NCBI RefSeq assembly: GCF_005234135.1
Contig: NZ_CP039964.1
Coordinates: 1,240,001-1,304,000, forward strand
Reading direction: 5' to 3'
Origin: Pseudorhodobacter turbinis
GTDB taxonomy: Bacteria; Pseudomonadota; Alphaproteobacteria; Rhodobacterales; Rhodobacteraceae
DNA length: 64,000 nucleotides
The notes below the pieces were generated by a model. The model was not told where the DNA came from. It searched no databases and worked only from the letters and a program-made list of their open reading frames with translations. Position numbers and translations under genes: made by a program. Of this stretch, positions 2,616-26,377 are shown in pieces (within the stretch, counting starts at the first letter, position 1; every line of letters starts with the position of its first letter).

Positions 2616-2986
2616 CCTTGGTTTGGTCATGTGTATCACCCACGGAGCATAACGGGACCGACCTGCCGGGCGCAAGGGAGGATTTCCGCACATGGAGGCG
2701 AGCGACGTGAACGGCCCATTGCTGCCGTTGGCCACCACCTAACTATGCTGCGGTGCGGTCCGTTGAAGGAGACATTCGTGGATCGTGCAGCATTTTGTCG
2801 GCCAGAACGTCGGTCTGCGGACTTTTCTGACATTCGCCGCAAGTGCGCCAATGTCGGTTTCAGCGAACCGTTCAACAAACGGTGGCTTTTGGGAGGCTGT
2901 TTTGCGGTAGATAATGGTTTGTCACACAGCCATGGGTAGTTCAAGATGTAGCCCAACAACCTATTATCGACAAGAAAGGCTCACCG
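2616..2986. other. Intergenic stretch without a recognisable gene
   Basis: Between the IS right end and the glycosyltransferase-like gene I see no convincing coding frame, RNA or repeat. Short open frames exist on both strands but have no ribosome binding sites or family features. The boundary at 2616 is a rearrangement point, because the sequence does not continue the integrase found left of the IS. Confidence 0.5.
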
Positions 2987-3757
2987 ATGACGCAAAACAG
3001 CTTTCGTATTTTGCTATGTGCTGATGCAGGATTCTTTCATTTTCTGCCTTCGCTTGAAGAGAATATCCTCAAACGTCAGGGGGAATATCCCGTGATATAC
3101 GATTTGGGAATGACGCCAGCGCAAGTGGCATGCCTCAAGAGCGAGGTCATTAAAGTCACTCCGCCAGACCGCTATAAGCTCCAAGCTTCTAGTGGTGCTA
3201 TTAAAGCTACACATAAGCCGCGGTGCATTCAGCATTTTCTGGAGAATTACGCGCAAGATGTTTTGTATATAGACGCTGATGTCGTTGTTCTTGAAACAAT
3301 TTACTCCGATGAGTTCTTGGGTGGGGATCTCTGTGTTACGCCGCGCCACCCCATAGAACTGCGTTCACCGTCCCCCTTTCTAAACGGCACGCTGAACTCG
3401 GGCGTTATTTTTTTCAAGAACACCCCCGCCGTGCAGAAGGTCGTAAAATTTTGGGAGGCGGAATGCGGCATCGATGATAAAAGTGATCAAATGGCCCTTA
3501 GTGATGTTCTTGAGGATGCCGACATTAAGGCGGGCCCGGGGGTCGGTCATGCCCATGGATTGACAATTCAAAAGCTGCCGGCGGCTATTTATAATGACGT
3601 CAGTTGCTCAACTGGGAAACTGTGGCACTTCAAGAATGCGGGACGCCGATCCAGCAAGAAGAACAAGCGTGCGGCGACCATTTTCTTCGCTAACAACGCA
3701 CCTTGGTCTATGCATCTGTGGTTGTCATGTCAGCGCCGCTTCCGGGCACAGGCGTAG
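2987..3757 (+). CDS. Glycosyltransferase-like protein (GT-A fold, nucleotide-diphospho-sugar transferase)
   Basis: This 256-residue protein begins FRILLCADAGFFHFL. It has the YIDADVVVLE motif near residue 95, a DxD-type metal and nucleotide-sugar site typical of GT-A transferases such as GT8, followed by FLNGTLNSGVIFFKN, the usual NSG(V/L) segment after the DxD. A QMALSDVL stretch matches the D-Q-x-x-(F/L) helix of these enzymes. The start is supported by AGAAAGG upstream of ATG. The last 40 residues are basic and unlike the family, so the 3' end may be frameshifted. The gene is isolated and converges on the disrupted TIR gene. The sugar and acceptor cannot be inferred. Confidence 0.65.
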   Translation: MTQNSFRILLCADAGFFHFLPSLEENILKRQGEYPVIYDLGMTPAQVACLKSEVIKVTPPDRYKLQASSGAIKATHKPRCIQHFLENYAQDVLYIDADVVVLETIYSDEFLGGDLCVTPRHPIELRSPSPFLNGTLNSGVIFFKNTPAVQKVVKFWEAECGIDDKSDQMALSDVLEDADIKAGPGVGHAHGLTIQKLPAAIYNDVSCSTGKLWHFKNAGRRSSKKNKRAATIFFANNAPWSMHLWLSCQRRFRAQA

Positions 3758-4169
3758 CACCAAAAACGGTCGTTTTTGGAGCGCGTGCGCTGGCGGTCAA
3801 GGTCGAGTGCCTAGCTGATCGTGCCCCGTCAATCTCCCAATATCTAGGCGATCCCATCCACCGTTAAAAATTGGCGCTTTTTGCGGATCGTCAGAATAGA
3901 CCTTGACCAACTCGTCAAGTGGCACGCGATCTTCAATCCCAAGCATAGGAAACAAGCGCATAAGTTCTCGTGTCGATTGAGCTCGAGCAAATATCTCAAA
4001 CGGGCGATGGCCACGGGAGAGAAGATACATCGTAACCGGAAACCAGAAGTAGTAGGGTTCTGCGTGGAGCAGGCGGTGGCGCAGAAACAGAACAAAGTCA
4101 GTTTGTATTAGTTGTTCGAACCTAAATCTGAACCGCCCCTTGTTTGCCGGAGAGCGTTTGTTTCGAATG

Positions 4170-5075
4170 TTAGGCTGCTTTTTCATTTGGGTTCAAGGTT
4201 GCATAGAACATCTCCTCTGCTTCATGCGGCGTGACATATCCGATGGCACTGTGCAGGCGCTTGGTGTTGTACCAATCGACCCATTTCAGCGTTTCCCATT
4301 CAAGCTGGCCCATTGATTTCCATGGGCCGAGCAACTTTGTAACCTCAGTTTTGAACAGGCCAATGATGCTTTCAGCGAGGGCATTATCGTAGGAATCTCC
4401 CACGGTTCCGACAGATGGATCGATCCCAGCGTCCGCCAATCGCTCAGTGTATTTAATGGACAAATATTGAGATCCGCGGTCGGAATGATGTATCAACCCG
4501 CCGCCTTTTTCAGGGCTGCGCTGACAGATCGCCTGGTTCAAGGCATCGAGCACAAAGGCTGTTGTCATCGATGTTGAGACCCGCCAGCCGACGATCCTTC
4601 GAGAGAAGACGTCGACAACAAATGCGACGTAAACCATGCCCTGCCATGTGGAAACATAAGTGAAGTCACTGACCCAGAGCTGGTTTGGGGATTGTGCTTT
4701 GAATTCGCGGTTCACTTTATCGTCCGGACACGGCTGAGAGGCATCGGGGTTCGTCGTGATGACTGGCTTGCCGCGAACAACGCCCTGTAATCCCATAACT
4801 TTCATCAAGCGTTCGACAGTGCATCGGGCGATGTCCTTGCTCTCACGGCGCAGTTGGTGCCAGACCTTTCTGGCGCCATAGCGGCCACGACTTTCATCGT
4901 GAACGCGCCGGATTTCCACGCTGTCCGTTACGTCTTGGCGCGCCCTGTTTGAGGCGAGCCGGGGATCTCGTCTGATCGCCGAATTTGCATAGTAGGACGA
5001 TGGTGCGACCCGCAAAATCTTGCAGATCGACCCGACACCAAAGTCCGTGCGGTAATCTTCAATGAATGAAATCAT
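4170..5075 (-). CDS. IS3-family OrfB transposase, copy A
   Basis: A 301-residue DDE transposase catalytic subunit: helix-turn-helix-21 region at the N-terminus (VGSICKILRVAPSSYYA), then LWVSDFTYV (first Asp), IHHSDRGSQYLS (second Asp) and GDSYDNALAESIIGLFKTE (catalytic Glu). Full length, no stops. It is predicted to be active and is identical to the other two copies, so the three insertions look recent. Confidence 0.93.
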   Translation of the reverse strand: MISFIEDYRTDFGVGSICKILRVAPSSYYANSAIRRDPRLASNRARQDVTDSVEIRRVHDESRGRYGARKVWHQLRRESKDIARCTVERLMKVMGLQGVVRGKPVITTNPDASQPCPDDKVNREFKAQSPNQLWVSDFTYVSTWQGMVYVAFVVDVFSRRIVGWRVSTSMTTAFVLDALNQAICQRSPEKGGGLIHHSDRGSQYLSIKYTERLADAGIDPSVGTVGDSYDNALAESIIGLFKTEVTKLLGPWKSMGQLEWETLKWVDWYNTKRLHSAIGYVTPHEAEEMFYATLNPNEKAA

Positions 5076-5404
5076 TTCCTGAACGGGCGGTCGAGTTCCG
5101 CCTGAGCAAAATACGCAGAAGCCTTCTTCAGAATCTCATTTGCTTGGCGCAGTTCCCGAACCTCACGCTCAAGCTCTTTGATCCGGGCCTTCTCCTCACA
5201 GGTGGGACCGTTGCGGGCACCAGCATCGCGTTCAGACTGACGGCACCATCCCCGCAGGCTATCAGGAGCACAGCCCAGCTTGGGTGCAATTGCCTGATAA
5301 GCAGCATTGTCACTGCGATATTCCGAGCGTTGTTCATTGAAAAGCCGAACGCCGCGCGCGCGGAACTCAGCCGTATAAGACGGGATATGTTTGCGTTGTG
5401 TCAT
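5072..5404 (-). CDS. IS3-family OrfA, copy A
   Basis: A 110-residue OrfA: an N-terminal helix-turn-helix (YTAEFRARGVRLFNEQ ... APDSLRGWCRQSE) followed by a heptad-like helix ending ANEILKKASAYFAQAE, the usual OrfA C-terminus in this family. Its TGA stop overlaps the ATG of OrfB (ATGA), allowing coupling or frameshifted OrfAB. It is intact and identical in copies B and C. Confidence 0.92.
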   Translation of the reverse strand: MTQRKHIPSYTAEFRARGVRLFNEQRSEYRSDNAAYQAIAPKLGCAPDSLRGWCRQSERDAGARNGPTCEEKARIKELEREVRELRQANEILKKASAYFAQAELDRPFRK

Positions 5405-5801
5405 AAGGGTTATCCTTGGAGAGTTTTACTCTCCGGTAAACCCGGGGCGGTTCAATCCGCTTCCCGCAGCCCTTTCCTTGAGAAGATCAGCATGAAGCGA
5501 ATACCGCCTTAGTCCTAGTTGTTTGTTGCGATGGTCAAGGAGGCTGTCGTGAAAGGAAAACACGTCATAAGTTCCCACTGCGTTACCGCCGTTCTCTCCA
5601 CGCACGGTGTCGTAATAGGGTCGTCCAGCGATTGCATCGAATAGGTCAGAACGGCCATCAGTCATCGCAATTGTACAGAAATACAGCAAGAATTCGTGTG
5701 CAAAGAATTTGTAGTTATCGAAATCAAATTTGCGATACCTGAAGTGGTCCTGCTTTTCTGAACAGGTTTGCGGCTCAGCTAAGGTGCATCGGGGTTAAGT
5801 T

Positions 5802-6656
5802 TCATGCTGCTTGGTTCATCTGTATTGGGTCAAAGTATGCGTCGTCTGGTGTCCGTTTATCAAGCGCGGTGTGCGGCCGCTCGGCGTTGTAGAATTCGAG
5901 CCATTCGTCGATGACGCGTTTGGCTTGGAACCCGTCCTGCAATTCGTGCAGGTAGACAGCCTCCTGTTTCAGTGAACGCCACAGCCTTTCGATGAAGATG
6001 TTGTCGAGATAACGTCCTCGGCCATCCATTGATATTTTGATCTTGGCGTCGGTCAGGGTGGTGATCCAGGCCGTCCCTGTGAACTGCGATCCTTGGTCGG
6101 TATTCATTATCTCGGGTTTGCCGTATTCGGCGATGGCCTCCTTCAAAGCCTCGACACAAAAGCTGGCATCCAACGTATTCGAGAGCCGCCACGCCAGCAC
6201 CTTACGCGTCGCCCAATCCATGATTGCCACCAGATAAAGGAATCCGCGCCGGACCGGAATATAGGTGATATCGCTGCACCAAACTTGGTTTGGGCGCGTG
6301 ATTGGCAGTTTCCTCAGCAGGTATGGATAGATCGGGTGCTGGGGATGCTTCTTGCTGGTGTTTGGGCCCTTATAGATCGCCTGCAACCCCATAACGCCCA
6401 TCAAGCGGCGCACGCGGTGGCGACCAGCATGAAACCCGTTTCGCGGCAGGTAGGCTGCGATCTGGCGGCTGCCAAAGAACGGGTATTTCATGAACACCCG
6501 ATCGATTTCATTCATCAGCTTCAGGGTCTCGGCATTCACACCGACCGGCGCATAATACAACGATGACCGGCTGATCTTCAGAAGTTTACATTGCTTCGTC
6601 AGGCTCAGGTCAGTGCGATCAGCGTTGATCATAGCCTTGCGTTCAGACGGGCTCAT
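5802..6656 (-). CDS. IS3-family OrfB transposase, copy D
   Basis: A 284-residue catalytic subunit with SRSSLYYAPVG near the N-terminus, VWCSDITYIPV (first Asp), MNTDQGSQFTG (second Asp) and RGRYLDNIFIERLWRSLKQE (catalytic Glu). The DDE set is complete. It overlaps OrfA by 4 bp. It belongs to the same subgroup as the broken copy at 59116, which has lost the middle Asp. Confidence 0.92.
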   Translation of the reverse strand: MSPSERKAMINADRTDLSLTKQCKLLKISRSSLYYAPVGVNAETLKLMNEIDRVFMKYPFFGSRQIAAYLPRNGFHAGRHRVRRLMGVMGLQAIYKGPNTSKKHPQHPIYPYLLRKLPITRPNQVWCSDITYIPVRRGFLYLVAIMDWATRKVLAWRLSNTLDASFCVEALKEAIAEYGKPEIMNTDQGSQFTGTAWITTLTDAKIKISMDGRGRYLDNIFIERLWRSLKQEAVYLHELQDGFQAKRVIDEWLEFYNAERPHTALDKRTPDDAYFDPIQMNQAA

Positions 6657-6931
6657 CGCTTCAGCCCTTGTGACAAAAAATCGTTCTCCACCGCCAGCTT
6701 CCCGATCTTGGCATGAAGCTCTTTGACTTGGGCCTCGTTGTCTTCGACCTTCTTTGCCTTGTCGGAAAACACGCCGGTCAGGCCGTCAATTGCCTGACGC
6801 TTCCATGTCGTCACCTGCGTTGGGTGGATCTTGTGCTTGGCTGCAATCTCTTGCGCCGTCTTGTCTCCGCGAAGTGCCTCAAGCGCTACCGTGGCCTTAA
6901 ACTTGTCCGAAAAACTACGTCTCGTCGTCAT
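6653..6931 (-). CDS. IS3-family OrfA, copy D
   Basis: A 92-residue DNA-binding OrfA starting MTTRRSFSDKFKATVALEA, with a helix-turn-helix around AAKHKIHPTQVTTWKRQ and a coiled C-terminal helix ending KIGKLAVENDFLSQGL. It is intact and placed directly upstream of OrfB with an ATGA overlap. Confidence 0.92.
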   Translation of the reverse strand: MTTRRSFSDKFKATVALEALRGDKTAQEIAAKHKIHPTQVTTWKRQAIDGLTGVFSDKAKKVEDNEAQVKELHAKIGKLAVENDFLSQGLKR

Positions 6932-7345
6932 TTCTGTATCCTGTCGTCAATGCTGGATACATCTTAGCACGCTGTCTGAATTTGCCGGACCACTTCAACC
7001 TGCCACTCTCTGGCGTCGCGTGGAAATAGGGAATGAACCGTTCTAGAAAAGCGTGTAACGCATCTCCGTAACGGGTTTCAGGTTCTGCTCGAGCAATTGC
7101 ACGCACCAGCGTTATTACTTCATCCCTATATGGTAGAAATGAAGCGTAATTGCTTGATATTTCATCTGACAGTGGATCAGTTTCGACATTGATGCGGAAT
7201 GCCTCTAGCTGATCAGTCAGGGTTTCTAAGTACTCTTGCGTCGCGGCAAAGGCATGTGGTTTGCTATTTTGAACAGCATCCATTGCCCGACGGTGTGAAC
7301 CGCCCCGGGTTTACCGGAGAGTAAAACTCTCCAAGGATAACCCTT

Positions 7346-7678
7346 ATGACACAACGCAAACATATCCCGTCTTATACGGCTGAGTTCCGCGCGCGCGGCG
7401 TTCGGCTTTTCAATGAACAACGCTCGGAATATCGCAGTGACAATGCTGCTTATCAGGCAATTGCACCCAAGCTGGGCTGTGCTCCTGATAGCCTGCGGGG
7501 ATGGTGCCGTCAGTCTGAACGCGATGCTGGTGCCCGCAACGGTCCCACCTGTGAGGAGAAGGCCCGGATCAAAGAGCTTGAGCGTGAGGTTCGGGAACTG
7601 CGCCAAGCAAATGAGATTCTGAAGAAGGCTTCTGCGTATTTTGCTCAGGCGGAACTCGACCGCCCGTTCAGGAAATGA
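7346..7678 (+). CDS. IS3-family OrfA, copy B
   Basis: Identical to the 110-residue OrfA of copy A (helix-turn-helix plus C-terminal coiled helix). Ends by ATGA overlap with OrfB at 7675. Confidence 0.92.
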   Translation: MTQRKHIPSYTAEFRARGVRLFNEQRSEYRSDNAAYQAIAPKLGCAPDSLRGWCRQSERDAGARNGPTCEEKARIKELEREVRELRQANEILKKASAYFAQAELDRPFRK

Positions 7679-8580
7679 TTTCATTCATTGAAGATTACCG
7701 CACGGACTTTGGTGTCGGGTCGATCTGCAAGATTTTGCGGGTCGCACCATCGTCCTACTATGCAAATTCGGCGATCAGACGAGATCCCCGGCTCGCCTCA
7801 AACAGGGCGCGCCAAGACGTAACGGACAGCGTGGAAATCCGGCGCGTTCACGATGAAAGTCGTGGCCGCTATGGCGCCAGAAAGGTCTGGCACCAACTGC
7901 GCCGTGAGAGCAAGGACATCGCCCGATGCACTGTCGAACGCTTGATGAAAGTTATGGGATTACAGGGCGTTGTTCGCGGCAAGCCAGTCATCACGACGAA
8001 CCCCGATGCCTCTCAGCCGTGTCCGGACGATAAAGTGAACCGCGAATTCAAAGCACAATCCCCAAACCAGCTCTGGGTCAGTGACTTCACTTATGTTTCC
8101 ACATGGCAGGGCATGGTTTACGTCGCATTTGTTGTCGACGTCTTCTCTCGAAGGATCGTCGGCTGGCGGGTCTCAACATCGATGACAACAGCCTTTGTGC
8201 TCGATGCCTTGAACCAGGCGATCTGTCAGCGCAGCCCTGAAAAAGGCGGCGGGTTGATACATCATTCCGACCGCGGATCTCAATATTTGTCCATTAAATA
8301 CACTGAGCGATTGGCGGACGCTGGGATCGATCCATCTGTCGGAACCGTGGGAGATTCCTACGATAATGCCCTCGCTGAAAGCATCATTGGCCTGTTCAAA
8401 ACTGAGGTTACAAAGTTGCTCGGCCCATGGAAATCAATGGGCCAGCTTGAATGGGAAACGCTGAAATGGGTCGATTGGTACAACACCAAGCGCCTGCACA
8501 GTGCCATCGGATATGTCACGCCGCATGAAGCAGAGGAGATGTTCTATGCAACCTTGAACCCAAATGAAAAAGCAGCCTAA
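7675..8580 (+). CDS. IS3-family OrfB transposase, copy B
   Basis: Identical 301-residue DDE transposase to copy A, with all three acidic residues present (SDFTYV, HSDRGSQ, NALAESI). Intact. Confidence 0.93.
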   Translation: MISFIEDYRTDFGVGSICKILRVAPSSYYANSAIRRDPRLASNRARQDVTDSVEIRRVHDESRGRYGARKVWHQLRRESKDIARCTVERLMKVMGLQGVVRGKPVITTNPDASQPCPDDKVNREFKAQSPNQLWVSDFTYVSTWQGMVYVAFVVDVFSRRIVGWRVSTSMTTAFVLDALNQAICQRSPEKGGGLIHHSDRGSQYLSIKYTERLADAGIDPSVGTVGDSYDNALAESIIGLFKTEVTKLLGPWKSMGQLEWETLKWVDWYNTKRLHSAIGYVTPHEAEEMFYATLNPNEKAA

Positions 8581-9184
8581 CATTCGAAACAAACGCTCTC
8601 CGGCAAACAAGGGGCGGTTCAGTGCGCCGCGCTCGTGGCAAGCGTGATCGTCGCTTCATCTGATTTCAGGTAGGCTGGCGGACGCCCTACGTCTGGCTTC
8701 TTGTAAAGTGGCTTGTCAAAAATCCAACGGACAAGTTGCTCGAAGCTATCTGTCGCTCTGGTCAAATCCGTAAAATCAATAAAAATACGCGACGTATAGT
8801 AAGTAGGCAAGCAGGCGTTTCCGTGTTCATCCCGCTCAAACACAAGCGCGACGAACTTGCCTTCGTCTTCGCCACTATAGAGCTTTGGGGATATGATCTG
8901 CGCTTCGGTTCCTGCGCCACCAGAACGCTGATCTGATTTCTCAGCGTAAACTCGGTCAGAGACGATTATGACTTTCTGAATGTCTTTATCTGTAACCATC
9001 TGCTCCATAAAAGCAGTGGACTCTTGGCCCTCGCGCAGATCCCACTTGTCAAGGATTGCATCAACTCCAGCCGAACGAAGGTCGGTCGCAAGATCTAAGA
9101 CCCGAGCTTCATGGTCGGGGCTACTCCAACTGTAGGAGATAAATGAACCGCCCCTTGTTTGCCGGAGAGCGTTTGTTTCGAATG

Positions 9185-10090
9185 TTAGGCTGCTTTTTCA
9201 TTTGGGTTCAAGGTTGCATAGAACATCTCCTCTGCTTCATGCGGCGTGACATATCCGATGGCACTGTGCAGGCGCTTGGTGTTGTACCAATCGACCCATT
9301 TCAGCGTTTCCCATTCAAGCTGGCCCATTGATTTCCATGGGCCGAGCAACTTTGTAACCTCAGTTTTGAACAGGCCAATGATGCTTTCAGCGAGGGCATT
9401 ATCGTAGGAATCTCCCACGGTTCCGACAGATGGATCGATCCCAGCGTCCGCCAATCGCTCAGTGTATTTAATGGACAAATATTGAGATCCGCGGTCGGAA
9501 TGATGTATCAACCCGCCGCCTTTTTCAGGGCTGCGCTGACAGATCGCCTGGTTCAAGGCATCGAGCACAAAGGCTGTTGTCATCGATGTTGAGACCCGCC
9601 AGCCGACGATCCTTCGAGAGAAGACGTCGACAACAAATGCGACGTAAACCATGCCCTGCCATGTGGAAACATAAGTGAAGTCACTGACCCAGAGCTGGTT
9701 TGGGGATTGTGCTTTGAATTCGCGGTTCACTTTATCGTCCGGACACGGCTGAGAGGCATCGGGGTTCGTCGTGATGACTGGCTTGCCGCGAACAACGCCC
9801 TGTAATCCCATAACTTTCATCAAGCGTTCGACAGTGCATCGGGCGATGTCCTTGCTCTCACGGCGCAGTTGGTGCCAGACCTTTCTGGCGCCATAGCGGC
9901 CACGACTTTCATCGTGAACGCGCCGGATTTCCACGCTGTCCGTTACGTCTTGGCGCGCCCTGTTTGAGGCGAGCCGGGGATCTCGTCTGATCGCCGAATT
10001 TGCATAGTAGGACGATGGTGCGACCCGCAAAATCTTGCAGATCGACCCGACACCAAAGTCCGTGCGGTAATCTTCAATGAATGAAATCAT
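9185..10090 (-). CDS. IS3-family OrfB transposase, copy C
   Basis: Identical 301-residue DDE transposase to copies A and B, full length, with the complete catalytic triad. Confidence 0.93.
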   Translation of the reverse strand: MISFIEDYRTDFGVGSICKILRVAPSSYYANSAIRRDPRLASNRARQDVTDSVEIRRVHDESRGRYGARKVWHQLRRESKDIARCTVERLMKVMGLQGVVRGKPVITTNPDASQPCPDDKVNREFKAQSPNQLWVSDFTYVSTWQGMVYVAFVVDVFSRRIVGWRVSTSMTTAFVLDALNQAICQRSPEKGGGLIHHSDRGSQYLSIKYTERLADAGIDPSVGTVGDSYDNALAESIIGLFKTEVTKLLGPWKSMGQLEWETLKWVDWYNTKRLHSAIGYVTPHEAEEMFYATLNPNEKAA

Positions 10091-10419
10091 TTCCTGAACG
10101 GGCGGTCGAGTTCCGCCTGAGCAAAATACGCAGAAGCCTTCTTCAGAATCTCATTTGCTTGGCGCAGTTCCCGAACCTCACGCTCAAGCTCTTTGATCCG
10201 GGCCTTCTCCTCACAGGTGGGACCGTTGCGGGCACCAGCATCGCGTTCAGACTGACGGCACCATCCCCGCAGGCTATCAGGAGCACAGCCCAGCTTGGGT
10301 GCAATTGCCTGATAAGCAGCATTGTCACTGCGATATTCCGAGCGTTGTTCATTGAAAAGCCGAACGCCGCGCGCGCGGAACTCAGCCGTATAAGACGGGA
10401 TATGTTTGCGTTGTGTCAT
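10087..10419 (-). CDS. IS3-family OrfA, copy C
   Basis: Identical 110-residue OrfA to copies A and B, overlapping OrfB by ATGA. Confidence 0.92.
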   Translation of the reverse strand: MTQRKHIPSYTAEFRARGVRLFNEQRSEYRSDNAAYQAIAPKLGCAPDSLRGWCRQSERDAGARNGPTCEEKARIKELEREVRELRQANEILKKASAYFAQAELDRPFRK

Positions 10420-10505
10420 AAGGGTTATCCTTGGAGAGTTTTACTCTCCGGTAAACCCGGGGCGGTTCAAAACGCCTTTGGCGCAGCTGGTTGAATATCG
10501 GACAT

Positions 10506-10873
10506 GGAGAGCTTTTCGATTGAGGCTATAGAGGTTTATTTAACCTAAAGTAGTGTCTCGTGACCAGAGAGTAACGATTCATGGGTAAGGCCATTCCAAA
10601 AACGCTCCTTTTTGGCACAGGCAAAAACCACGCCGATCTACGCTGCCAAAAACCCCGTTCAAAATCCATGTGGTTGTTGGAGGTTTTTGGAAACTTTCAT
10701 GATGACGGACATTCGTGCAATGCGCAGCATCGGACACAATGGGCTCAAACCGGACTTGCGGCGGTGCGGCAGGCAAATCTTGACCTTGCAGGCTTCTGCG
10801 CGACCAACCGGATGACCGGTCCCAGCCCGAAGCGGACGGTAGGCAACCGTTCCCGAGAAAGAATTTTTGGCGT
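10506..10873. other. Intergenic stretch between the DUF4238 and TIR genes
   Basis: About 370 bp without a supported gene. It should contain the promoter of the disrupted TIR/SEFIR gene (start at 10505, minus strand), since the gap is long enough for separate transcription. I did not find a clear -35/-10 pair or a terminator-type hairpin. Confidence 0.4.
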
Positions 10874-11740
10874 CTATCCAATGCATTTTCTGAAAAATTC
10901 TCGCCCATCAAGCACACAAGAGGAATCACAGTCGAGTATAAGGAAGTCATCCGTTTTGAAGAAAATATTTCGATGTGCATTCACAAGTGTGCCAAAATTG
11001 AAGGACGCGACCATTGTCTTGTCGAGAATTAGCTTAGAGGCTTTTAGCGAGCCGCTCTGACCCAGTATTGCAAGATTTTTCGACAAAGGCACGAAGATTG
11101 TTGCTCCAGGGCTCTCAAACCCCCACGGTGGATCTTCGTTCGCGGTTGCGATCTGTAGTGGAAAGTCGCTCGTAACGAACTCCCCTGCGTCGTCGCCAGC
11201 CTCCAAGATAGCCCAACTTTTTGAGCATAAACTATCAAAAATTGGTTCGATTAGCGGTAGTTCCATTCCGACATGTTCTTCAGAAAACAAGTTACGACTA
11301 TTGCGCTTCTTTAGAATATCGTTTCCATCGTCGCCAAGAGCAGATCTGATCAGCAGTCCGTCAAGCTGCCGCATGGGCGCCTCAAGCATTGAACGTTGCT
11401 TTGGATTGCGGGCTGTCGTCATTGCGAAGAACAGCAAAAGCCTCTCTAGATCTTCCCTCGATGAGAGACTCTTCGATTGGAGAACTTTCTTCAAAGCTGC
11501 GCCCGCAGGTTCCTCCACAGCATAAGAGTAAAGTTTTTCGACACTGTTTGGATCGGCTTTCGAAAAGGACCTGTTAAAATTCTTTGCTCCGCCAGTTTTG
11601 TCAGTGCGCTTTTCAAAAGTTTTTAATTCAAACTTGTCAAACACCTGAATTGCATGTTTCTTTTTTCTATCTTCGGCAGCAAACCCTTTGAGATAAAAAT
11701 TCGAAACGTAGTGATGAAACTTTGGTTCTGACAAAGGCAT
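10874..11740 (-). CDS. DUF4238-family protein
   Basis: The protein (288 residues from ATG 11740) opens with KFHHYVSNFYLKGFA, the signature of the DUF4238 family. Its other typical blocks follow: FFAMTTARNPKQR in the middle, AGEFVTSDFPLQIA and IFVPLSKNLAI in the C-terminal third. The open frame extends 27 codons further upstream, but family alignment favours the ATG just before PLSEPKF. The AGGAG there is unusually close to the ATG. The biochemical role of DUF4238 is unknown to me. The gene is often found in variable islands, and here it is upstream of, and in the same direction as, a TIR/SEFIR gene. A joint defence role is a guess. Confidence 0.75.
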   Translation of the reverse strand: MPLSEPKFHHYVSNFYLKGFAAEDRKKKHAIQVFDKFELKTFEKRTDKTGGAKNFNRSFSKADPNSVEKLYSYAVEEPAGAALKKVLQSKSLSSREDLERLLLFFAMTTARNPKQRSMLEAPMRQLDGLLIRSALGDDGNDILKKRNSRNLFSEEHVGMELPLIEPIFDSLCSKSWAILEAGDDAGEFVTSDFPLQIATANEDPPWGFESPGATIFVPLSKNLAILGQSGSLKASKLILDKTMVASFNFGTLVNAHRNIFFKTDDFLILDCDSSCVLDGREFFRKCIG

Positions 11741-12280
11741 TCTCCTGCAAGAAATAGTCCCAACAAGGGCCATTCTATCTCTACATGTATCAGTTATCCG
11801 CAGGACATATGCAAAGCTCACTAACTGCGCACAACCGACCTTGGCGTGCAGCTCAGCATGGAGGCTTCGGTCTGCTGCGGCTTTAATGGCCGCTTTTGCA
11901 ATTCTGGCACAGAACCTTCGCAGATACAGCTAAGGTCCGGTTTCCTGAAGGTTTTTCGATGCGGGCCGCAGCATGACGTTGGCTGCCATGAGGTGGCGGC
12001 CCGCGTTGACAAACCTCGGAAGGAGGAAGCCGCGGGGGTCTGGGATCAGCCTATGGGGAAAGACCTCTGACGGTCGGGGCTGTGTCCGCAGCTGGCGTGA
12101 GGCTGGAAGGAGCCTGGACCCATTTTGCAACTGGGTCCAGGCGCATGGCCTGCGGATTTATCGACACTTGAAGGTTCGCAGGGCGTATCGGTCTACAGAC
12201 CGGCGCGCTTTGCAAATGGCTTCCTGGCCGGAACTGCGGGGAGATCCGAGGTTTCATCAATGCGGTGATCGGGCGTTTCG
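11741..12280. other. Gene-free stretch with an 11-bp perfect hairpin
   Basis: No convincing coding frame. Positions 12112-12142 hold a perfect inverted repeat with 11-bp arms (GCCTGGACCCA and its complement) and a 9-nt loop. It lies 140 bp beyond the stop codon of the IS91-type transposase, so it could be a terminator or part of the IS91 terminal signal. Confidence 0.5.
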
Positions 12281-13477
12281 TCATGCTGCCTGCTCCCTCG
12301 GTGGCGCGCGGGAACAGGGTTTCTGGCCGCGCCGGAAGATCTCAATGATGCGCATGGGGCCGCCGCAGCATGGGCAGGGTTCGCGCAGGGTGAGTGGCAC
12401 GGTCTCGGTCTCCTGCTGCACGGCCTCGTGTTCAGGGCGCGGTGCCCCGAGCAGGGTGCGGATCTTCGCAATATTGGCCTTGCGGGTCGCGTTGGCCAGA
12501 AACCCATAGTGCCGGATGCGGTGGAAGCCATCGGGCAGGACATGGATCAGGAAGCGGCGTATGAACTCGGGGGTGGTCAACCGCATTACCTTTTGTCTGT
12601 CACCAGACTTGATGCGGTAATCGTTCCATCGGAAGGCGACCGTCTCTGCATCGGCGCTGACCAGACGGGTGTTGGAGATCGCCACCCTGTGGGTGTATCG
12701 GCTCAAATAGGCCAGCACCGCGTCAGGCCCGCCGAAGGGCGGTTTGGCATAGACGACCCATTCGGATTTGCGGAACGGCGCGAGCCAACGGGCAAAAGCA
12801 TCGGCACCCGCCAGCCCGGTGAGATCGCCGAAGAAGGCCAACTCACCTGCGTGATGCAGAGCCATCAGTCCCTCCAGAAACAGGCGCCGGAACAGCCGGG
12901 AGAGCACCCGCACATGGAGAAAGAACCCCGGCCTGCAGGAGACCCACCGGGTACCGTCCGGCGACAGGCCACCGCCGGGAACGATCATGTGGACATGAGG
13001 GTGATGGGTCAGTGCTGAACCCCAAGTATGCAGCACACTGGTCATGCCAACCCGCGCGCCCAAGCGCTTCGGATCTGCGGCGATGGTTATCACCGTTTCG
13101 GCCGACGCCCTCAACAGCAAGCCATAGACCGCCTTCTTGTTCCAGTAGGCGATCTGCGCGATCTCGGTTGGCAGAGTGAAGACGACGTGGAAGTATTCGA
13201 CCGGCAGCAGATCCTCGGCCCGTGCGGCCATCCAGTCCCGCGCCGCCGGACCCTGGCATTTGGGGCAGTGTCGGTTCTTGCAGGAATTGTAGGCGATATG
13301 GTGGTGGCCGCATTTGGCGCAGCCAGCCACATGCCCGCCGAGCGCCTCGGTCCGGCAGGCTTCAATCGCCGACATCACCTTGAGCTGGCTGAGGCTGATA
13401 TGCCCGGCATTGGCCTGTCGCCACGCAGGGCCATGGGCACGGAAGATGTCAGCGATTTCCAGCTTTGGCCGGTTCAC
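12281..13477 (-). CDS. IS91-family transposase (HUH-type rolling-circle)
   Basis: A 398-residue protein with an N-terminal zinc ribbon (CAKCGHHHIAYNSCKNRHCPKC), then WGSALTHHPHVHMIVPGGGL, which holds the His-hydrophobic-His motif used in rolling-circle transposition, and YLSRYTHRVAISN toward the C-terminus with the Tyr region. A second CPCCGG zinc knuckle lies near the end. The frame starts with GTG. It is encoded 12 bp after the stop of a tyrosine recombinase gene, the two-gene arrangement common in alphaproteobacterial IS91 elements. Confidence 0.93.
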   Translation of the reverse strand: MNRPKLEIADIFRAHGPAWRQANAGHISLSQLKVMSAIEACRTEALGGHVAGCAKCGHHHIAYNSCKNRHCPKCQGPAARDWMAARAEDLLPVEYFHVVFTLPTEIAQIAYWNKKAVYGLLLRASAETVITIAADPKRLGARVGMTSVLHTWGSALTHHPHVHMIVPGGGLSPDGTRWVSCRPGFFLHVRVLSRLFRRLFLEGLMALHHAGELAFFGDLTGLAGADAFARWLAPFRKSEWVVYAKPPFGGPDAVLAYLSRYTHRVAISNTRLVSADAETVAFRWNDYRIKSGDRQKVMRLTTPEFIRRFLIHVLPDGFHRIRHYGFLANATRKANIAKIRTLLGAPRPEHEAVQQETETVPLTLREPCPCCGGPMRIIEIFRRGQKPCSRAPPREQAA

Positions 13478-13489
13478 CGGCCACGATCA

Positions 13490-14377
13490 CTACTCCAACC
13501 CTCGTCGAAGGGTTTCATCCTGCAATAGTTTCATATGCTCAAAGGGGCTCACGGTGCTTTGGATCGTCTTTGTCGCCACATGGGTGTAGCGCGCCGTGGT
13601 GGTCAGCTTGGCATGCCCGAGCAACACCTGGATCACCCGCACGTCCGTGTTCGCCTCCAGCAGATGCGTGGCGAAGCTGTGTCGCAATGTGTGCAGGGTC
13701 GCCAGTTTATTAATCCCTGCCATGTGTTTGGCTGAGGTGAAGGCCCGATTCAACTGGCGTGGCGAGAGCGGACTGATCTTCGGTTTGCCCGGAAATAGCC
13801 ACCCCTCAGGGCGGGACTCGCGCCAATACTCCCGCAGCAGGTCCAGCAGGCTGGGCGACAGCATGGCCTTGCGATCGCGCCCGCCCTTGCCGTCATCGAC
13901 ATGGATCAGCATCCGATCGCTATCGATATCCTTGACCTTGAGGTTGCAGACCTCGGCGGCCCGTAATCCTGCACCATAGCTGATCCCAAGCGCTGCGCGA
14001 TACTTGAGCCCCGGGCCAGGCACAGCGGCCATCAGGTCAGCCACCTCCTCGACGCTCAGGACAATTGGCAGTTTCCGGGGTTTGCGGTGGAACTGCATGA
14101 ACCGCTTCATCTCTTCGCGACCGCAGGTGAAGCCGAAGAAGAACCGGAGCGAGATGATCCTGACGTTGTAGGTGCTTGCAGATACTCCGTCGTTGGTCAT
14201 CTGTAACTGATACGCGCGCAGGTCTTTAGGGGTGGCTGTGTCAGGTGGCCGTCCGAGAAAGGCGGCAAAGTGCTTCACGTTCCGGATGTGGGCCTTCTGG
14301 GCCTTCTCGCCGAGGCCACGAATTTGCATGTCCTCAATCATGCGCTGACGCAGCGCGGTGGTCTTTTCCTCCTTCAT
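13490..14377 (-). CDS. Tyrosine recombinase partner of the IS91-type transposase
   Basis: A 295-residue XerC/D-like recombinase. ATG 14377 is chosen because AGGAGG sits 5 nt upstream; the open frame extends 20 codons further. Residues 1-90 are a SAM-like core-binding domain. The catalytic domain shows GAGLRAAEV (Arg), THTLRHSFATHL-type LHTLRHSF (HxxR), LLGHAKLTTTARYTHV (His and Tyr nucleophile). It is followed by the IS91 transposase gene and probably transposes as a unit with it. Confidence 0.9.
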   Translation of the reverse strand: MKEEKTTALRQRMIEDMQIRGLGEKAQKAHIRNVKHFAAFLGRPPDTATPKDLRAYQLQMTNDGVSASTYNVRIISLRFFFGFTCGREEMKRFMQFHRKPRKLPIVLSVEEVADLMAAVPGPGLKYRAALGISYGAGLRAAEVCNLKVKDIDSDRMLIHVDDGKGGRDRKAMLSPSLLDLLREYWRESRPEGWLFPGKPKISPLSPRQLNRAFTSAKHMAGINKLATLHTLRHSFATHLLEANTDVRVIQVLLGHAKLTTTARYTHVATKTIQSTVSPFEHMKLLQDETLRRGLE

Positions 14378-14599
14378 GGGAACCTCCTGTCTGACGGTGG
14401 GAAAGACCCAGATCGTCAGCCCAGAAAGGCCAATCACAAAGTAAAATGCTGAAATGATCCTGAACGCCGCGACTGGGCGCCAATGCCGCGGAGCGGCTTA
14501 GTCCATCCGCCCCAAATGCCTGCGGCACAACCTTTTTTCCGTCTATCCCCCAACCCTCGCTTACGCGACCGTTCACGGTTACAAATCTGGCGACAATCC

Positions 14600-20807: not shown

Positions 20808-20843
20808 CTAGCCGATCACCTCGTCGGCGTTTGCGTTTGTCAT
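20808..20843 (-). CDS. Possible 11-codon upstream ORF after the riboswitch
   Basis: ATG follows the last conserved riboswitch bases directly. It reads MTNANADEVIG and its TAG overlaps the AGGAGG of the next ORF. Too short to judge by coding content. No clear ribosome binding site apart from the riboswitch 3' strand (CAGGAG). Confidence 0.25.
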   Translation of the reverse strand: MTNANADEVIG

Positions 20844-21003
20844 GGCAGGTCTCCTGGCTCGCGGCTCAAATGTTTGATGATCCCTTCCCGGCGTCGCAGC
20901 CAGTGGCATGATATCAAACTCGCCGCCTACAGTTGCGAGGGCAGCCGCAGAGAGGGATAAATCCCGTCCTGCGTTCCCTTTTCATCCGCTTGCGCGGAAC
21001 CGT
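20844..21003 (-). promoter_or_regulatory. Cobalamin (AdoCbl/B12) riboswitch
   Basis: On the minus strand the conserved B12-riboswitch blocks occur in order: CGGTTCC and GGATGAAAAGGGAA, then GCTGCCCTCGCAACTGTA, then ATGCCACTGG, then CGGGAAGG, and finally the B12 box AGCCAGGAGACCTGCC. Spacing fits the Rfam cobalamin fold. It precedes the ABC importer/LLM operon and should lower its expression when B12 is plentiful. Confidence 0.95.
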
Positions 21004-21251
21004 GACAACGCAAAACCTTTCACATCCCAATACGAAAGCCAAGAGCAATCATTGGACGATCCAGTGTTCGCACCATCGAAACCCCGCTAGATGGTGCAAA
21101 CAGTCGCTCTGCGCTACGCTTTTACGAGTATATTTTGGGGTCGCGAACCCGTTACATTTCCAAATTCGGACTGTCTGGAGTGGTCGTGCAAACGTCGGTT
21201 CATCACTTATAATCCAGTCACCCTATTAAAATAGGCCATTGCCCGCTTCCG

Positions 21252-22450: not shown

Positions 22451-22581
22451 ACTAGTGAGTAGCGCAGCGGCAATTCTCACGGGTTCGTGATGCGCAATCC
22501 AGAAAAAACCGCCGCGACCTGTGCCGGGATTTTCGGGGGTACCGCGTATTCTTGGGGGAAGCAGATAACCCGAGGTTCACC

Positions 22582-24414
22582 ATGTCCGTTCATGCCAGAT
22601 TTGACAATCCCCAACCCGTCAATGCCCCAAAGCCGCCGATTGTGCTGCGGTTCCAAGGGCTGCATCCGGACAACCTCGGCCGCTTTGATATGCATGATCA
22701 TCGTAACGGTGGCGATCTCTCCCATGTTGATCTGAATGCGTCAGAGCTGAATGAAGTTCTGCATTGCGAACCCAAATGGCAAGCGACGATCAAGGCAGAA
22801 GTCGCTGCAGCCAGGCGCGACAACTTTCGGGAACGGATGGAGGCCTTGCGCAAGAAGGGCCGCAAAGCCGAACGGGAGGCACTGCAAGCTGAAGGGGAAA
22901 GCGACCCTTGGCGGCGCTGTTCCGGTGGTCCCTTGCGTGAGGGCATCCTGACGGTCAACAAGGAATGGTTTGGCGGGACGGGGCAAGCCGAATGGGATGC
23001 GGAGAAGGTCGCTGCGTTCAAGAAAGCGGCGATGGACTTTCTGCGGAATCACTTCCCTGACGGTCAGCTGCGCTATGCCAATGCGCATCATGACGAGGAG
23101 GCCTTTCATATCCATTTCGTTGCAGTGGTCTGGACAGAGAAAGTGACGGCAAATCGCGGGCGGCAGATGCTGTTGCAGGCCTCAATGAATCCGCTCTTGA
23201 AGAACTATGAGCATGCGCAGGATTTGGCTGGGGAAGCGTTTGCGCCCCTTGGCATTGCCCGAGGAGAACGGCGGGCCGAGGCGCGGCGGGTTACGAAAGA
23301 GGCTGGCGAGGACGTGCCCAAAAAGCGTCGCCATATCCCGCCATCGGAATGGCGTGCCGATCAGCAGGCAGCGGGCCATGAGAAATCCAGCGAGATTTTG
23401 GAGGCTGCTCAGCACAAAGCCAAAGAGATGATCGCTTACGGGCGGATCATGGGCAAGGCCACGATCCGGAAATCGCGCAAACGCGCGATCAAGGAGGCGC
23501 GCCGCAGGAAAGAGGCGGCGACGCGCGAGGTGGCGGCGGCAGAGCGCCACCGCAAAGAAGAGGAACGGGCAGCGGATGCCGCCCGCAAAGCGAGGGCTGA
23601 TGCCGAGGCTGCGCTCGTCACCATAGAAGAAAAGTCGGCAAATAGTGCTGAGGCAGCGCAGGTGGCAACGGCAACACTTCAGGAGGTGAGGGCAGAGACG
23701 GGTGTTGAGGCCGAGAAATTGCAGGGGGTGAAAACGGAAATAATAAATGCAGAAAAGGGGCTGACGGATGTGCAGGCAGAGGTTGAGAAGGCTTCGTTAA
23801 GACGGGATCAGGTTACAGCTGAGGTCGTGACACAAGGCGAGAATCTTGATCGGCTGAAGTCGTTGGCGAAAAAGAAAACGACGGATTTGGCCGCGACTTC
23901 GGGGCAGGTTCAATCGCTGAAATCAGAAAGGCAGGCTGAAACGCAGGCTTTGGACGGGGTGAAAAAGAAGCGGGAGGTAGCAAAATCTGAGCTGGCGGAT
24001 ATTGAAGCCAAGGTGGTGACTGCAGAGGCAAAACTCTCAAAGGCGGAGTCTTTGATGAAGGTGTTGGTTGAAGGCATCGATATGCTTGGCAGTGCCGTGC
24101 TGCGCTGGATTACAGCGCCCAACCCGAGCGAGGAAAAGCTGGGCTGGGGGCCTAATGCGCCGAAAGCCAAAGACGAGCACAAGCGGATCGAGACACGCAT
24201 GCGGCCGGTAATGCCGAAGCTGGTCCCGCTCGCGCAATCCATCCGCCGCACGATTGACGAAACCCTGAGCTTTGAGCGCGCAGAGATTGCCGCAGATGCC
24301 GCCTATGTTCTCGAACAGCGCGAGACTTTGGAGGCGGAGCAGCGGGCCGAGTTGACCCGCATTCTGAACGCACATGCGCAAACCGACCCGACGTCTGACG
24401 GGCCAGGGGTCTGA
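22582..24414 (+). CDS. MobV/Pre-like relaxase (mobilisation protein)
   Basis: A 610-residue protein; start ATG 22582 has GAGG 6 nt upstream. The motif ANAHHDEEAFHIHFVAVV near residue 185 matches the H-x-D-E-x(n)-H-x-H metal-binding motif of MobV relaxases. An N-terminal VLRFQGLHPDNLGRFDMH region corresponds to the R/N-rich motif I. Residues 300-500 are a long Ala/Glu/Lys coiled coil, as usual for Mob/Pre proteins. It would nick an oriT (probably the hairpins at 22351-22450) and lead single-strand transfer. Its stop touches the stop of the convergent integrase gene. It makes the island mobilisable by a helper conjugative system; no type IV secretion genes are visible. Confidence 0.82.
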   Translation: MSVHARFDNPQPVNAPKPPIVLRFQGLHPDNLGRFDMHDHRNGGDLSHVDLNASELNEVLHCEPKWQATIKAEVAAARRDNFRERMEALRKKGRKAEREALQAEGESDPWRRCSGGPLREGILTVNKEWFGGTGQAEWDAEKVAAFKKAAMDFLRNHFPDGQLRYANAHHDEEAFHIHFVAVVWTEKVTANRGRQMLLQASMNPLLKNYEHAQDLAGEAFAPLGIARGERRAEARRVTKEAGEDVPKKRRHIPPSEWRADQQAAGHEKSSEILEAAQHKAKEMIAYGRIMGKATIRKSRKRAIKEARRRKEAATREVAAAERHRKEEERAADAARKARADAEAALVTIEEKSANSAEAAQVATATLQEVRAETGVEAEKLQGVKTEIINAEKGLTDVQAEVEKASLRRDQVTAEVVTQGENLDRLKSLAKKKTTDLAATSGQVQSLKSERQAETQALDGVKKKREVAKSELADIEAKVVTAEAKLSKAESLMKVLVEGIDMLGSAVLRWITAPNPSEEKLGWGPNAPKAKDEHKRIETRMRPVMPKLVPLAQSIRRTIDETLSFERAEIAADAAYVLEQRETLEAEQRAELTRILNAHAQTDPTSDGPGV

Positions 24415-26208
24415 TCAGATCACGGCTGGCAACCTCTCAATGGCCGCCTGCAACACAGCGGGCGGCGCAGGCTTGCTATAGGTGCGCTCATGGGTGTCTT
24501 TACCTTCATGGCCGACGATGTCGCGCAGCACCTTGTCGGTCACTTCCGGAACGTGCTCCAACGTGCCCTGAACATAGTGCCGCAGGCTGTGGAATGACAG
24601 GCCAGCGCCTTCGATCCCAAAGGTCTTGTCGACGATCTGGCGCATCCGGCGGCCCAGCTTGCGGCCATGTTTCCCCGTTGCAGGCTCGCGCAGATCGGGG
24701 AACAGCTCGGCTTGTTCCTTTGCGCGGGCTTCGTCCACGAACTCCAGAAAACCCAGCGCGATCAAACGGCTGTGGATCGGCACGAGCCGTTTCGACGAGA
24801 TATTCTTGATCCGCCGCAGCTCGGAATCCTCGATGCTGAGGCAAGGGATGCCATCACGTTCGACAATGTCAGCAGGGGCCAGCCCTGCGATCTCTTCGCG
24901 CCGCGCCCCTGTAAACGCGCCGATCACAGGCGACCAATAGATGCCGTTGCGGTAAACCTCTGTGCCCGGATCGGTCTGGTGATACTCGGACTTCGATCCG
25001 GTCCAAACCGGGGATTTGAACAGAAGGTGCAGCTCTGCCTCGGTGAAGGCCTGTTTCTTGTCACAGTCGCGAACGGTGTCCTTGCGCCGCAATTTACCGG
25101 GTTTGAGCTTGGGATTGACGGCAATGCCCTCATCCGAGGCCCACTCGACAATCTGGCCCAGATGCTCAAGATGGCGATTGATCGTGCCGATGGAGAGCCC
25201 GACCTTTTCCGGCGGAAGTTTGGCGGCGCGGGCCATGATCTCTTCACGGGTGGCATTGCGGTCAGCGGGACTTTTGCCCCAGCTTTTCGGCAGCTTGTAA
25301 AGCGCCGCGCGAAACCCCGTGGCATCGGCCTGCCGGATTAGGCGCACGTCACTGATGCCGGTCAGCGTGGTAAAGAGGCCAACAAAGCTCTCGTATTGGC
25401 GCAGGGTCTTTTCTTCGATGCCTTCGCTGCGCTTCATCTCGTTCATGCGCGACACAACGGCCTGCATGTCGGGATCGAGGGTGCCCGCGTCCACCTCAGG
25501 ACACAGCAACGGGGGAACGGCTGGCGACTCCGGCTCTGGTGCAAGCACATGAGAGGCGCCGTCCCAAAGATCATCCGCCGCCGTGTCGATATCAGCCAAG
25601 GCCTCTTCGTGCCGGTTCCAGGCCGCGGATTTTCCAGCGATCAGCAAGGAGATCAACTTCGCACGGTCAAAGGCCGAAAGCTGAGGATGACCCGTTAACG
25701 CCTTGAAATCGCGTTGAATGAGGTTCTGGCGGGCTTCGCTGGTGAGGTCATCGCGGATGATGTCCAAATGCAAAGAGACCAAGGGATGATCAGACGTCGC
25801 ACCATGCAAACCATCCGCATTCACCTTTGCCCAAGCATCCGCCGTTGCCTGATCGTGGCGCTGGTCATCGGCGGGATCGCGGGAATCAAAACGATGCAGC
25901 AGTTTGAGCTTCTCGATCTTCTCCCGCTCTTTGGTGATGACACTGGCAAGCCAGCGCCGCGCCATATCCGGCGTGATCTGTTGGTGGCTGAGGTGTTCCA
26001 TGACGATATCGCTTTCCGCACTGATCCTGCGGGATAAGATATGTGCGCAGCGCAGGTCTGTCGTCCCCAGCGAGAGCTTGATATCGACGATTCCTGTGGA
26101 TTGTCGGCGCAAACGACGCCGCCACTGATAGGTATTTCCGCGTTTTGAGAGATGAGGTTGGTTCAACATTCGTTTCAGATCCGGTTGAGACGGATACGAA
26201 ACGGTCAT
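24415..26208 (-). CDS. Tyrosine recombinase, integrase of the tRNA-Asn island
   Basis: A 597-residue integrase. The N-terminus (HLSKRGNTYQWRRRLRRQ) is the DUF6538-like arm-binding segment. The long middle part is helical and includes a core-binding domain near residues 270-370. The catalytic domain shows GAFTGARREEIAGL (Arg), GAGLSFHSLRHYVQ (HxxR) and IVGHEGKDTHERTYSK (His and Tyr). It starts 95 bp from tRNA-Asn and is transcribed away from it, the usual site for an island integrase. A truncated near-identical copy lies at 702-1417. Confidence 0.92.
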   Translation of the reverse strand: MTVSYPSQPDLKRMLNQPHLSKRGNTYQWRRRLRRQSTGIVDIKLSLGTTDLRCAHILSRRISAESDIVMEHLSHQQITPDMARRWLASVITKEREKIEKLKLLHRFDSRDPADDQRHDQATADAWAKVNADGLHGATSDHPLVSLHLDIIRDDLTSEARQNLIQRDFKALTGHPQLSAFDRAKLISLLIAGKSAAWNRHEEALADIDTAADDLWDGASHVLAPEPESPAVPPLLCPEVDAGTLDPDMQAVVSRMNEMKRSEGIEEKTLRQYESFVGLFTTLTGISDVRLIRQADATGFRAALYKLPKSWGKSPADRNATREEIMARAAKLPPEKVGLSIGTINRHLEHLGQIVEWASDEGIAVNPKLKPGKLRRKDTVRDCDKKQAFTEAELHLLFKSPVWTGSKSEYHQTDPGTEVYRNGIYWSPVIGAFTGARREEIAGLAPADIVERDGIPCLSIEDSELRRIKNISSKRLVPIHSRLIALGFLEFVDEARAKEQAELFPDLREPATGKHGRKLGRRMRQIVDKTFGIEGAGLSFHSLRHYVQGTLEHVPEVTDKVLRDIVGHEGKDTHERTYSKPAPPAVLQAAIERLPAVI

Positions 26209-26300: not shown

Positions 26301-26321
26301 ATTGGCTCCGGCGGTAGGGAT
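26301..26321 (-). repeat. Right att repeat within tRNA-Asn 3' end
   Basis: Same 21 bp as 16432-16452. It covers the acceptor stem 3' strand, discriminator, CCA and two bases beyond, so integration keeps the tRNA whole. Confidence 0.85.
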
Positions 26322-26377
26322 CGAACCTACGACCAATTGATTAACAGTCAACTGCTCTACCGCTGAGCTACGCCGGA
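26303..26377 (-). tRNA. tRNA-Asn (GTT)
   Basis: 75 nt including an encoded CCA. Acceptor stem TCCGGCG/CGCCGGA, D arm GCTCAGCGGTAGAGC, anticodon loop CTGTTAATC with anticodon GTT, T arm TAGGTTCGATCCCTA, discriminator G. It serves as the island attachment site. Confidence 0.97.

Follow-up and report, generated by a model that had tools for sequence, protein, structure and literature searches.

The stretch of DNA analysed here, a window of 64,000 nucleotides from Pseudorhodobacter turbinis (contig NZ_CP039964.1, positions 1,240,001 to 1,304,000), carries at 3797-10505 a minus-strand gene that is cut into five pieces by four insertion sequences (ISs) of the IS3 family, each with its own 3-bp target duplication. 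The gene matches bSEFIR, a single-gene anti-phage system, and lies between two 20-bp palindromes, the right one of which forms the start of a conserved two-hairpin sequence ~98 nt long (the right element, RE). The coordinates of all features are collected in Table 1.

Pieces 2 to 5 are each open throughout in one frame and the short piece 1 is open from its start codon. The pieces were never rejoined; their unity was judged against an intact natural orthologue. Such orthologues could be found, for example in P. aquimaris, where the intact gene (locus L010, 595-2067) holds all five pieces in order at 92-98% DNA identity and encodes a protein of 486 aa (P0002). Because this gene contains all five in order, the pieces are evidently parts of one gene and do not stem from different genes, in agreement with the preliminary description of the locus, which had proposed one minus-strand gene with a 486-residue product.

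Table 1. Features at the bSEFIR locus, with positions in the window.
Feature	Positions	Strand	Basis or remark
bSEFIR piece 1	10470..10505	-	start codon 10503-10505; frame; 10470-10615 matches intact P. aquimaris locus (92% DNA identity)
bSEFIR piece 2, SEFIR/TIR domain including conserved GGAGTEAQ segment	8622..9143	-	98% to intact gene
bSEFIR piece 3, C-terminal region	6998..7295	-	98% to intact gene; PADLOC bSEFIR 1e-4
bSEFIR piece 4, C-terminal region	5455..5739	-	97% to intact gene; PADLOC bSEFIR 0.016
bSEFIR piece 5, C-terminus and stop codon	3797..4128	-	frame; 95% to intact locus
IS3-family IS, 1326 bp	9144..10469	-	target duplication AAA
1326-bp IS copy, opposite orientation	7296..8621	+	target duplication GTG
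Second IS3-family IS, 1258 bp	5740..6997	-	target duplication ACC
1326-bp IS copy	4129..5454	-	target duplication ATC
Left cassette palindrome CCAAAAACGGTCGTTTTTGG	3760..3779	.	similarity ends here in two comparisons
Right cassette palindrome CCAAAAACGCTCCTTTTTGG	10596..10615	.	similarity break
Right element (RE), two-hairpin sequence	10594..10691	+	similarity extends to ~10752 in some copies
Left element (LE) with degenerate site, start of glycosyltransferase unit	2773..2900	+	sequence comparison
Glycosyltransferase-like gene	2987..3757	+	Nucleotid_trans 4.3e-6; neighbouring unit common to P. aquimaris C49
DUF4238 gene, neighbouring defence-type gene	10874..11821	-	PADLOC DUF4238-Pers 3.4e-25

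Piece 2 matches the Pfam families SEFIR (5.1e-15) and TIR_2 (6.6e-13), which bears out the N-terminal TIR/SEFIR domain proposed earlier, and the PADLOC bSEFIR profile at E 2.8e-77; for pieces 3 and 4 the matches lie towards its end (Table 1). The intact P. aquimaris orthologue is covered by it from residue 5 to 446 (9.7e-101), and its N-terminal domain matches a solved SEFIR structure (5y8e, 5.8e-28). Furthermore, piece 2 retains the GTE segment with a conserved glutamate (E91), which is invariant across 39 aligned homologues and which we take to be the catalytic residue of the TIR/SEFIR NADase site. Judged by these matches, the gene family is the already known bSEFIR / SEFIR anti-phage system (PADLOC PDLC03957), with which the locus shares the SEFIR domain, the single-gene architecture and the GTE segment. 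Most of the C-terminal region is included: the 320 residues first thought unassignable fall largely within the profile. The locus differs from the known system in that the window copy is broken by four ISs, and for the proteobacterial branch to which it belongs the defence activity is a predicted one. With the ISs inside it the gene has no single intact open reading frame, and the window copy is a bSEFIR pseudogene, not a working member. SEFIR was reportedly published by Millman et al. in 2022 as an abortive-infection anti-phage system. A limited literature search returned nothing under the name bSEFIR and nothing on a SEFIR gene inactivated by an IS. One published table gives NAD+ depletion for SEFIR and calls its phenotype abortive (PMC12322248), and elsewhere it is grouped with NAD+-depleting systems (PMC12774641).

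It had also been suggested that the intact gene represents an undescribed TIR/SEFIR defence effector family. This could draw on NCBIfam, in which no model reached its cut-off on the pieces (one sub-threshold match, E 0.045), and on the C-terminal pieces, for which no Pfam family scored above its cut-off. The span of the bSEFIR profile over the orthologue nonetheless refutes the strong form of the suggestion. Moreover, a protein search in which 8000 candidates were scored yielded 2060 relatives at E <= 0.001; among the best 120 of these homologues 20 carry a source name, 11 of which state a SEFIR or TIR domain. We therefore regard an undescribed family as very improbable.

Piece 2 was also searched in 195 genomes, five of which (source genome included) gave a match: in a congener (G002) the frame runs without interruption for 496 codons and is 99% identical over piece 2, two further genomes have frames of 493 and 511 codons, and one distant match (32% identity) contains two stops. 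A copy 100% identical to the query is present in NZ_LGHS01000011.1 (Pseudorhodobacter aquimaris KCTC 23043), and 153 plasmid records match piece 2.

All four ISs, with the clean duplications AAA, GTG, ACC and ATC, are found exactly as first described. The three 1326-bp copies are one element in both orientations and mutually 100% identical; genome-wide there are 10 full-length identical copies, 8 of them with a 3-bp duplication. For the 1258-bp IS there are three such copies, all with a duplication. Family membership follows from the transposases, which for both ISs match NCBIfam IS3 profiles (2e-93 and 4.5e-80), together with the 3-bp duplications; in addition, an ALIL pseudoknot is present in all three 1326-bp copies here. 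The ISs at this locus show no unusual feature. Compared with P. aquimaris, the gene pieces have accumulated 17 synonymous and 21 non-synonymous codon changes and no new stop. The absence of new stops, a pN/pS of ~0.37 (a simple count, piece by piece) and the identical IS copies in the genome point to recent damage.

Why the gene was hit so often is less clear. The preliminary description suggested loss of a costly or auto-toxic gene; on such a view the first IS would have been selected and later ones tolerated. Were insertion uniform, four hits in one gene would be extremely improbable: none of 200,000 simulations put 4 or more of the 13 copies within 1464 bp. NAD-depleting systems can be costly to their host, and in G545, one of four genomes (including the source) with a match at E <= 1e-20 in a class-wide sample of 385, the alphaproteobacterial copy is also split into two frames near residue 264 (though a sequencing error is possible). 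The other two genomes have a 487-codon frame flagged with one TGA (G484), and a match to the domain only (G542). Against purging speaks, firstly, the state of the homologues. We surveyed 34 loci in genome contigs, 28 of which match along most of the protein length; 27 of them stay open across the matched part (L026 and L034 run up to a contig end) and one (L025) has an early stop. The remaining six match the query in part only, L048 in a 77-codon frame. Breakage is thus, as far as these homologues go, no rule of the bSEFIR family, and because 27 of 28 are open auto-toxicity is not singled out. Secondly, the cluster is unsurprising if no more than 1-2% of the genome tolerates insertion: its probability is 1.4e-4, 0.012 or 0.077 if 10%, 2% or 1% does, fractions that are assumptions. 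Thirdly, the adjacent DNA also carries ISs and integrase remnants. Selective purging thus lacks specific support, and we consider it unlikely, though not negligibly so.

Alternatively, the region might be an IS insertion hotspot in dispensable island DNA, with no selection on the gene, a view that in our estimate is evenly balanced. A span of 6.4 kb contains three copies of the 1326-bp element, and a fourth is 15 kb away; the target triplets have no visible shared consensus, and the gene pieces are AT-richer (GC content 0.48-0.51, compared with 0.58-0.59 in the right half of the window). However, a hotspot does not account for four hits in a 1.46-kb gene when the DUF4238 and glycosyltransferase genes next to it received none. 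Insertion into dispensable island DNA fits the data as well as purging of a toxic gene; a purged costly gene and a dead gene in a dumping ground are not separable here.

The boundaries of the locus are sharp. Similarity of the window to P. aquimaris C11, which carries the bSEFIR gene of that species between palindromes of the same kind, begins and stops at the two 20-bp palindromes. At P. aquimaris C49 (L097) the outer flanks are the same as in the window (97.9% left, 95.5% right), and an Abi_alpha gene (Pfam 3.2e-19) takes the place of bSEFIR between the palindromes. Base by base, the break falls at the palindrome or at most ~1 bp beyond, on both sides and at both P. aquimaris loci. The palindromes at C11 are not perfect. 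Allowing up to three mismatches, the two palindrome places count as four matches over both strands, against a mean of 0.03 and a maximum of 2 in 100 shuffles. A search at two mismatches was unusable owing to too many control matches; we used instead the number of genus genomes with such palindromes, which is 7 out of 9 (source genome included) with 0 control matches. No empty site was seen in the 9 genus genomes when searched with the P. aquimaris C11 flanks. From these comparisons the bSEFIR gene appears to be the cargo of a putatively mobile single-gene cassette between palindromes. No description of such a palindrome-bounded arrangement was found in a limited literature search; the bSEFIR family itself is already known. 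Palindrome-bounded units with an RE were also seen at L097, L098, L100, L101, L266 and L267.

With a model of the RE we found 52 places at E <= 0.01 in 26 of 198 family genomes (one per genus). In the class-wide sample 3 of 385 genomes matched at E <= 0.001: the source genome, one of the same family and a partial match outside it. Among plasmids, 22 records match, 21 of which belong to Roseobacter-group genera. Local matches at the fetched loci also numbered 52; without the three weakest, 49 were examined for a left-type site, allowing at most two mismatches. Such a site lies inside and in the same orientation at 30 of the 49; it lies inside in opposite orientation at 7 (five being self-complementary palindromes also counted among the 30), outside at 1 (another unit's RE) and outside in opposite orientation at 1. 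Many of these loci had been found through the palindrome itself. Among the 26 REs in loci fetched by the RE alone (L167-L189, L196, L197) the left site lies inside in the same orientation at 14; three of these 14 are copies of a single repeated unit, and two have a palindrome in common.

Support for the hairpins is mixed. Over 49 distinct rows, pairing holds in 84.9% of the cells, where sliding gives no more than 59.8%, and both sides are changed in 22 cells, against no more than 16 on sliding. On two other measures, however, a slide of +3 does as well as the structure, and the alignment had been fitted to the structure. RNAalifold on 12 rows gave no covariation gain for the hairpins (term +0.44). 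Single-strand folding of the RE is modestly better than that of shuffled sequences (z -1.8 and -2.0).

We listed 28 cassette units; in two of these a palindrome lacking the RE forms the right boundary. Their cargo measures 0.4-3.2 kb, and 19 units contain exactly one frame of at least 80 codons (overlaps removed). Judged by the longest frame, the cargo points toward the right boundary in 16 units and away from it in 12. A role of the palindromes as terminators was ruled out, as cargo faces either way. On a choice of cargo proteins from these units, Pfam named 2 of 11 (Abi_alpha and one hydrolase-like) and gave nothing for 9; with PADLOC, 3 of 10 match at E 0.01, two of them below 1e-4. Reading of the sequence without profiles adds ThiC, BioY with a regulator, an arsenic-type operon and an SDR. 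Phage-defence genes among the cargo are bSEFIR, Abi_alpha and a PD-T4-5-like fragment. In G043 an identical block, consisting of a serine recombinase, a left site, a ThiC-like gene and an RE, fills the fetched 5.6 kb on three contigs (L178, L179, L180); as the repeat fills the whole fetched stretch, no element ends are visible.

A link between the RE and small serine recombinases is seen at a few loci. In L228, L229 and L232 such a recombinase has an RE-like sequence 0, 10 and 10 nt ahead of its start codon (42.8, 35.1 and 27.7 bits), which suggests that the RE may be a res-type site. L231 has half an RE before a recombinase-like start, and in the G043 unit the recombinase lies ~0.1 kb before the left site. 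In L230 no RE directly precedes the recombinase. The one small serine recombinase of the source genome (C1:649291, L238) was rejected as a candidate: it is not near any of the sites listed and lacks an upstream RE-like sequence (other PF00239 matches in this genome are frames of 528-575 codons). On pTHAF37_a (L272, 4218 onward) a Tn5053-like tniABQ transposon is inserted 120 bp beyond an RE; transposons related to such tni elements are known as res-site hunters, and this lends the res-type site weak support.

Taking gene, boundaries and insertions together, we think it likely that the window holds a copy of bSEFIR, a known defence system of one gene, that was inactivated recently; it would have arrived as a palindrome-bounded cassette and was then cut four times. 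Several observations weigh against this. Piece 5 alone has no profile match, at P. aquimaris C11 no RE follows the right palindrome, and 19 of the 49 REs have no recognised left site. Recombining sites of serine recombinases need an identical central dinucleotide, which is GT in the left and CT in the right palindrome, a misfit with simple serine recombination between the two. Finally, no strong RE-like match turned up at 30 serine recombinase loci of the genus, the sole weak one (L208, 15.7 bits, E 0.05) lying ~1 kb from the recombinase.

These last two points also favour the view that palindromes and RE are homologous-recombination patches or regulatory repeats and no dedicated enzyme's sites, as do the RNAalifold result and the fact that no serine recombinase was found near most cassette units (tblastn and motif scan of the fetched loci). 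Conversely, the two orientations of the cargo leave no room for a plain terminator or promoter, the breaks fall at the palindromes on both sides, and RE-like sequences do directly precede three recombinase genes. We consider such patches or repeats quite possible, though our judgement leans somewhat the other way. A further proposal is that the bacterial family carries an integron-like cassette system without IntI. Its cassettes, often with a single gene and in some cases with a phage-defence gene, would be docked at dispersed res-type sites, and a small serine recombinase working in trans would exchange them at the 20-bp palindromes. Our already low estimate of this proposal was lowered slightly further because of the control over the 30 genus loci, and we put it forward as a rather improbable reading.

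Resemblances to known systems are partial. Integron cassettes (attI/attC) are likewise often single genes, often of unknown function, that are exchanged beside a conserved folded site; here, however, genes face either way, RE-like sites adjoin serine recombinases in three genomes, and the RE shows no attC core motifs by eye (no integron integrase search was made). The res sites of Tn3/ParA-type resolvases resemble the RE-like sequences of L228, L229 and L232 in their position directly upstream of small serine recombinases, whereas the cassette site encloses cargo genes, mostly has no recombinase in sight and has no strong match at the genus recombinase loci. The pdif modules (XerCD) of plasmids are also single-gene modules between short inverted-repeat sites, but the cassette site is 20 bp long and of other sequence.

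The surroundings form an IS- and integrase-rich island with integrase fragments, an IS91-type pair and a relaxase, as judged from sequence reading and profiles. A truncated C-terminal integrase copy (702-1592, by translation) corresponds to the integrase at 24415-26208, which lies beside tRNA-Asn (26303-26377); by our reading the two copies would be nested or tandem island remnants. An IS91-type transposase with a tyrosine recombinase was read at 12281-14437 in the window and at L105 (4323-6000), L014 (1-597) and L190 (2107-4335); at several loci such pairs adjoin REs or sit inside a cassette. The relaxase gene of the island is of the Mob_Pre type (22552-24414, Pfam 2.2e-6), and a cobalamin riboswitch (20827-21018, Rfam, 104 bits) lies upstream of what reads as an ABC transporter operon. 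The small serine recombinase of L229 and that of L230 are each followed by a gene reading like the DUF4238 family (no profile run).

By analogy with its family, the SEFIR (TIR-like) domain of the intact protein would cleave NAD+ upon sensing phage, the C-terminal region would act as sensor or regulator, and the outcome would be abortive infection. The gene would have come as a single-gene cassette, whose palindromes beside a res-like element mark its observed boundaries in the genomic island, and would have moved by site-specific recombination. Two different IS3-family elements then cut it four times, the insertions after the first one presumably being neutral. By itself the broken bSEFIR gene adds little; the point of interest is the cassette arrangement. 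If true, a bacterial family would store and swap cassettes, with immune genes and many unknown ones, at a class of site other than that of integrons, and the right element together with the left site may offer a sequence handle for listing new candidate defence genes.

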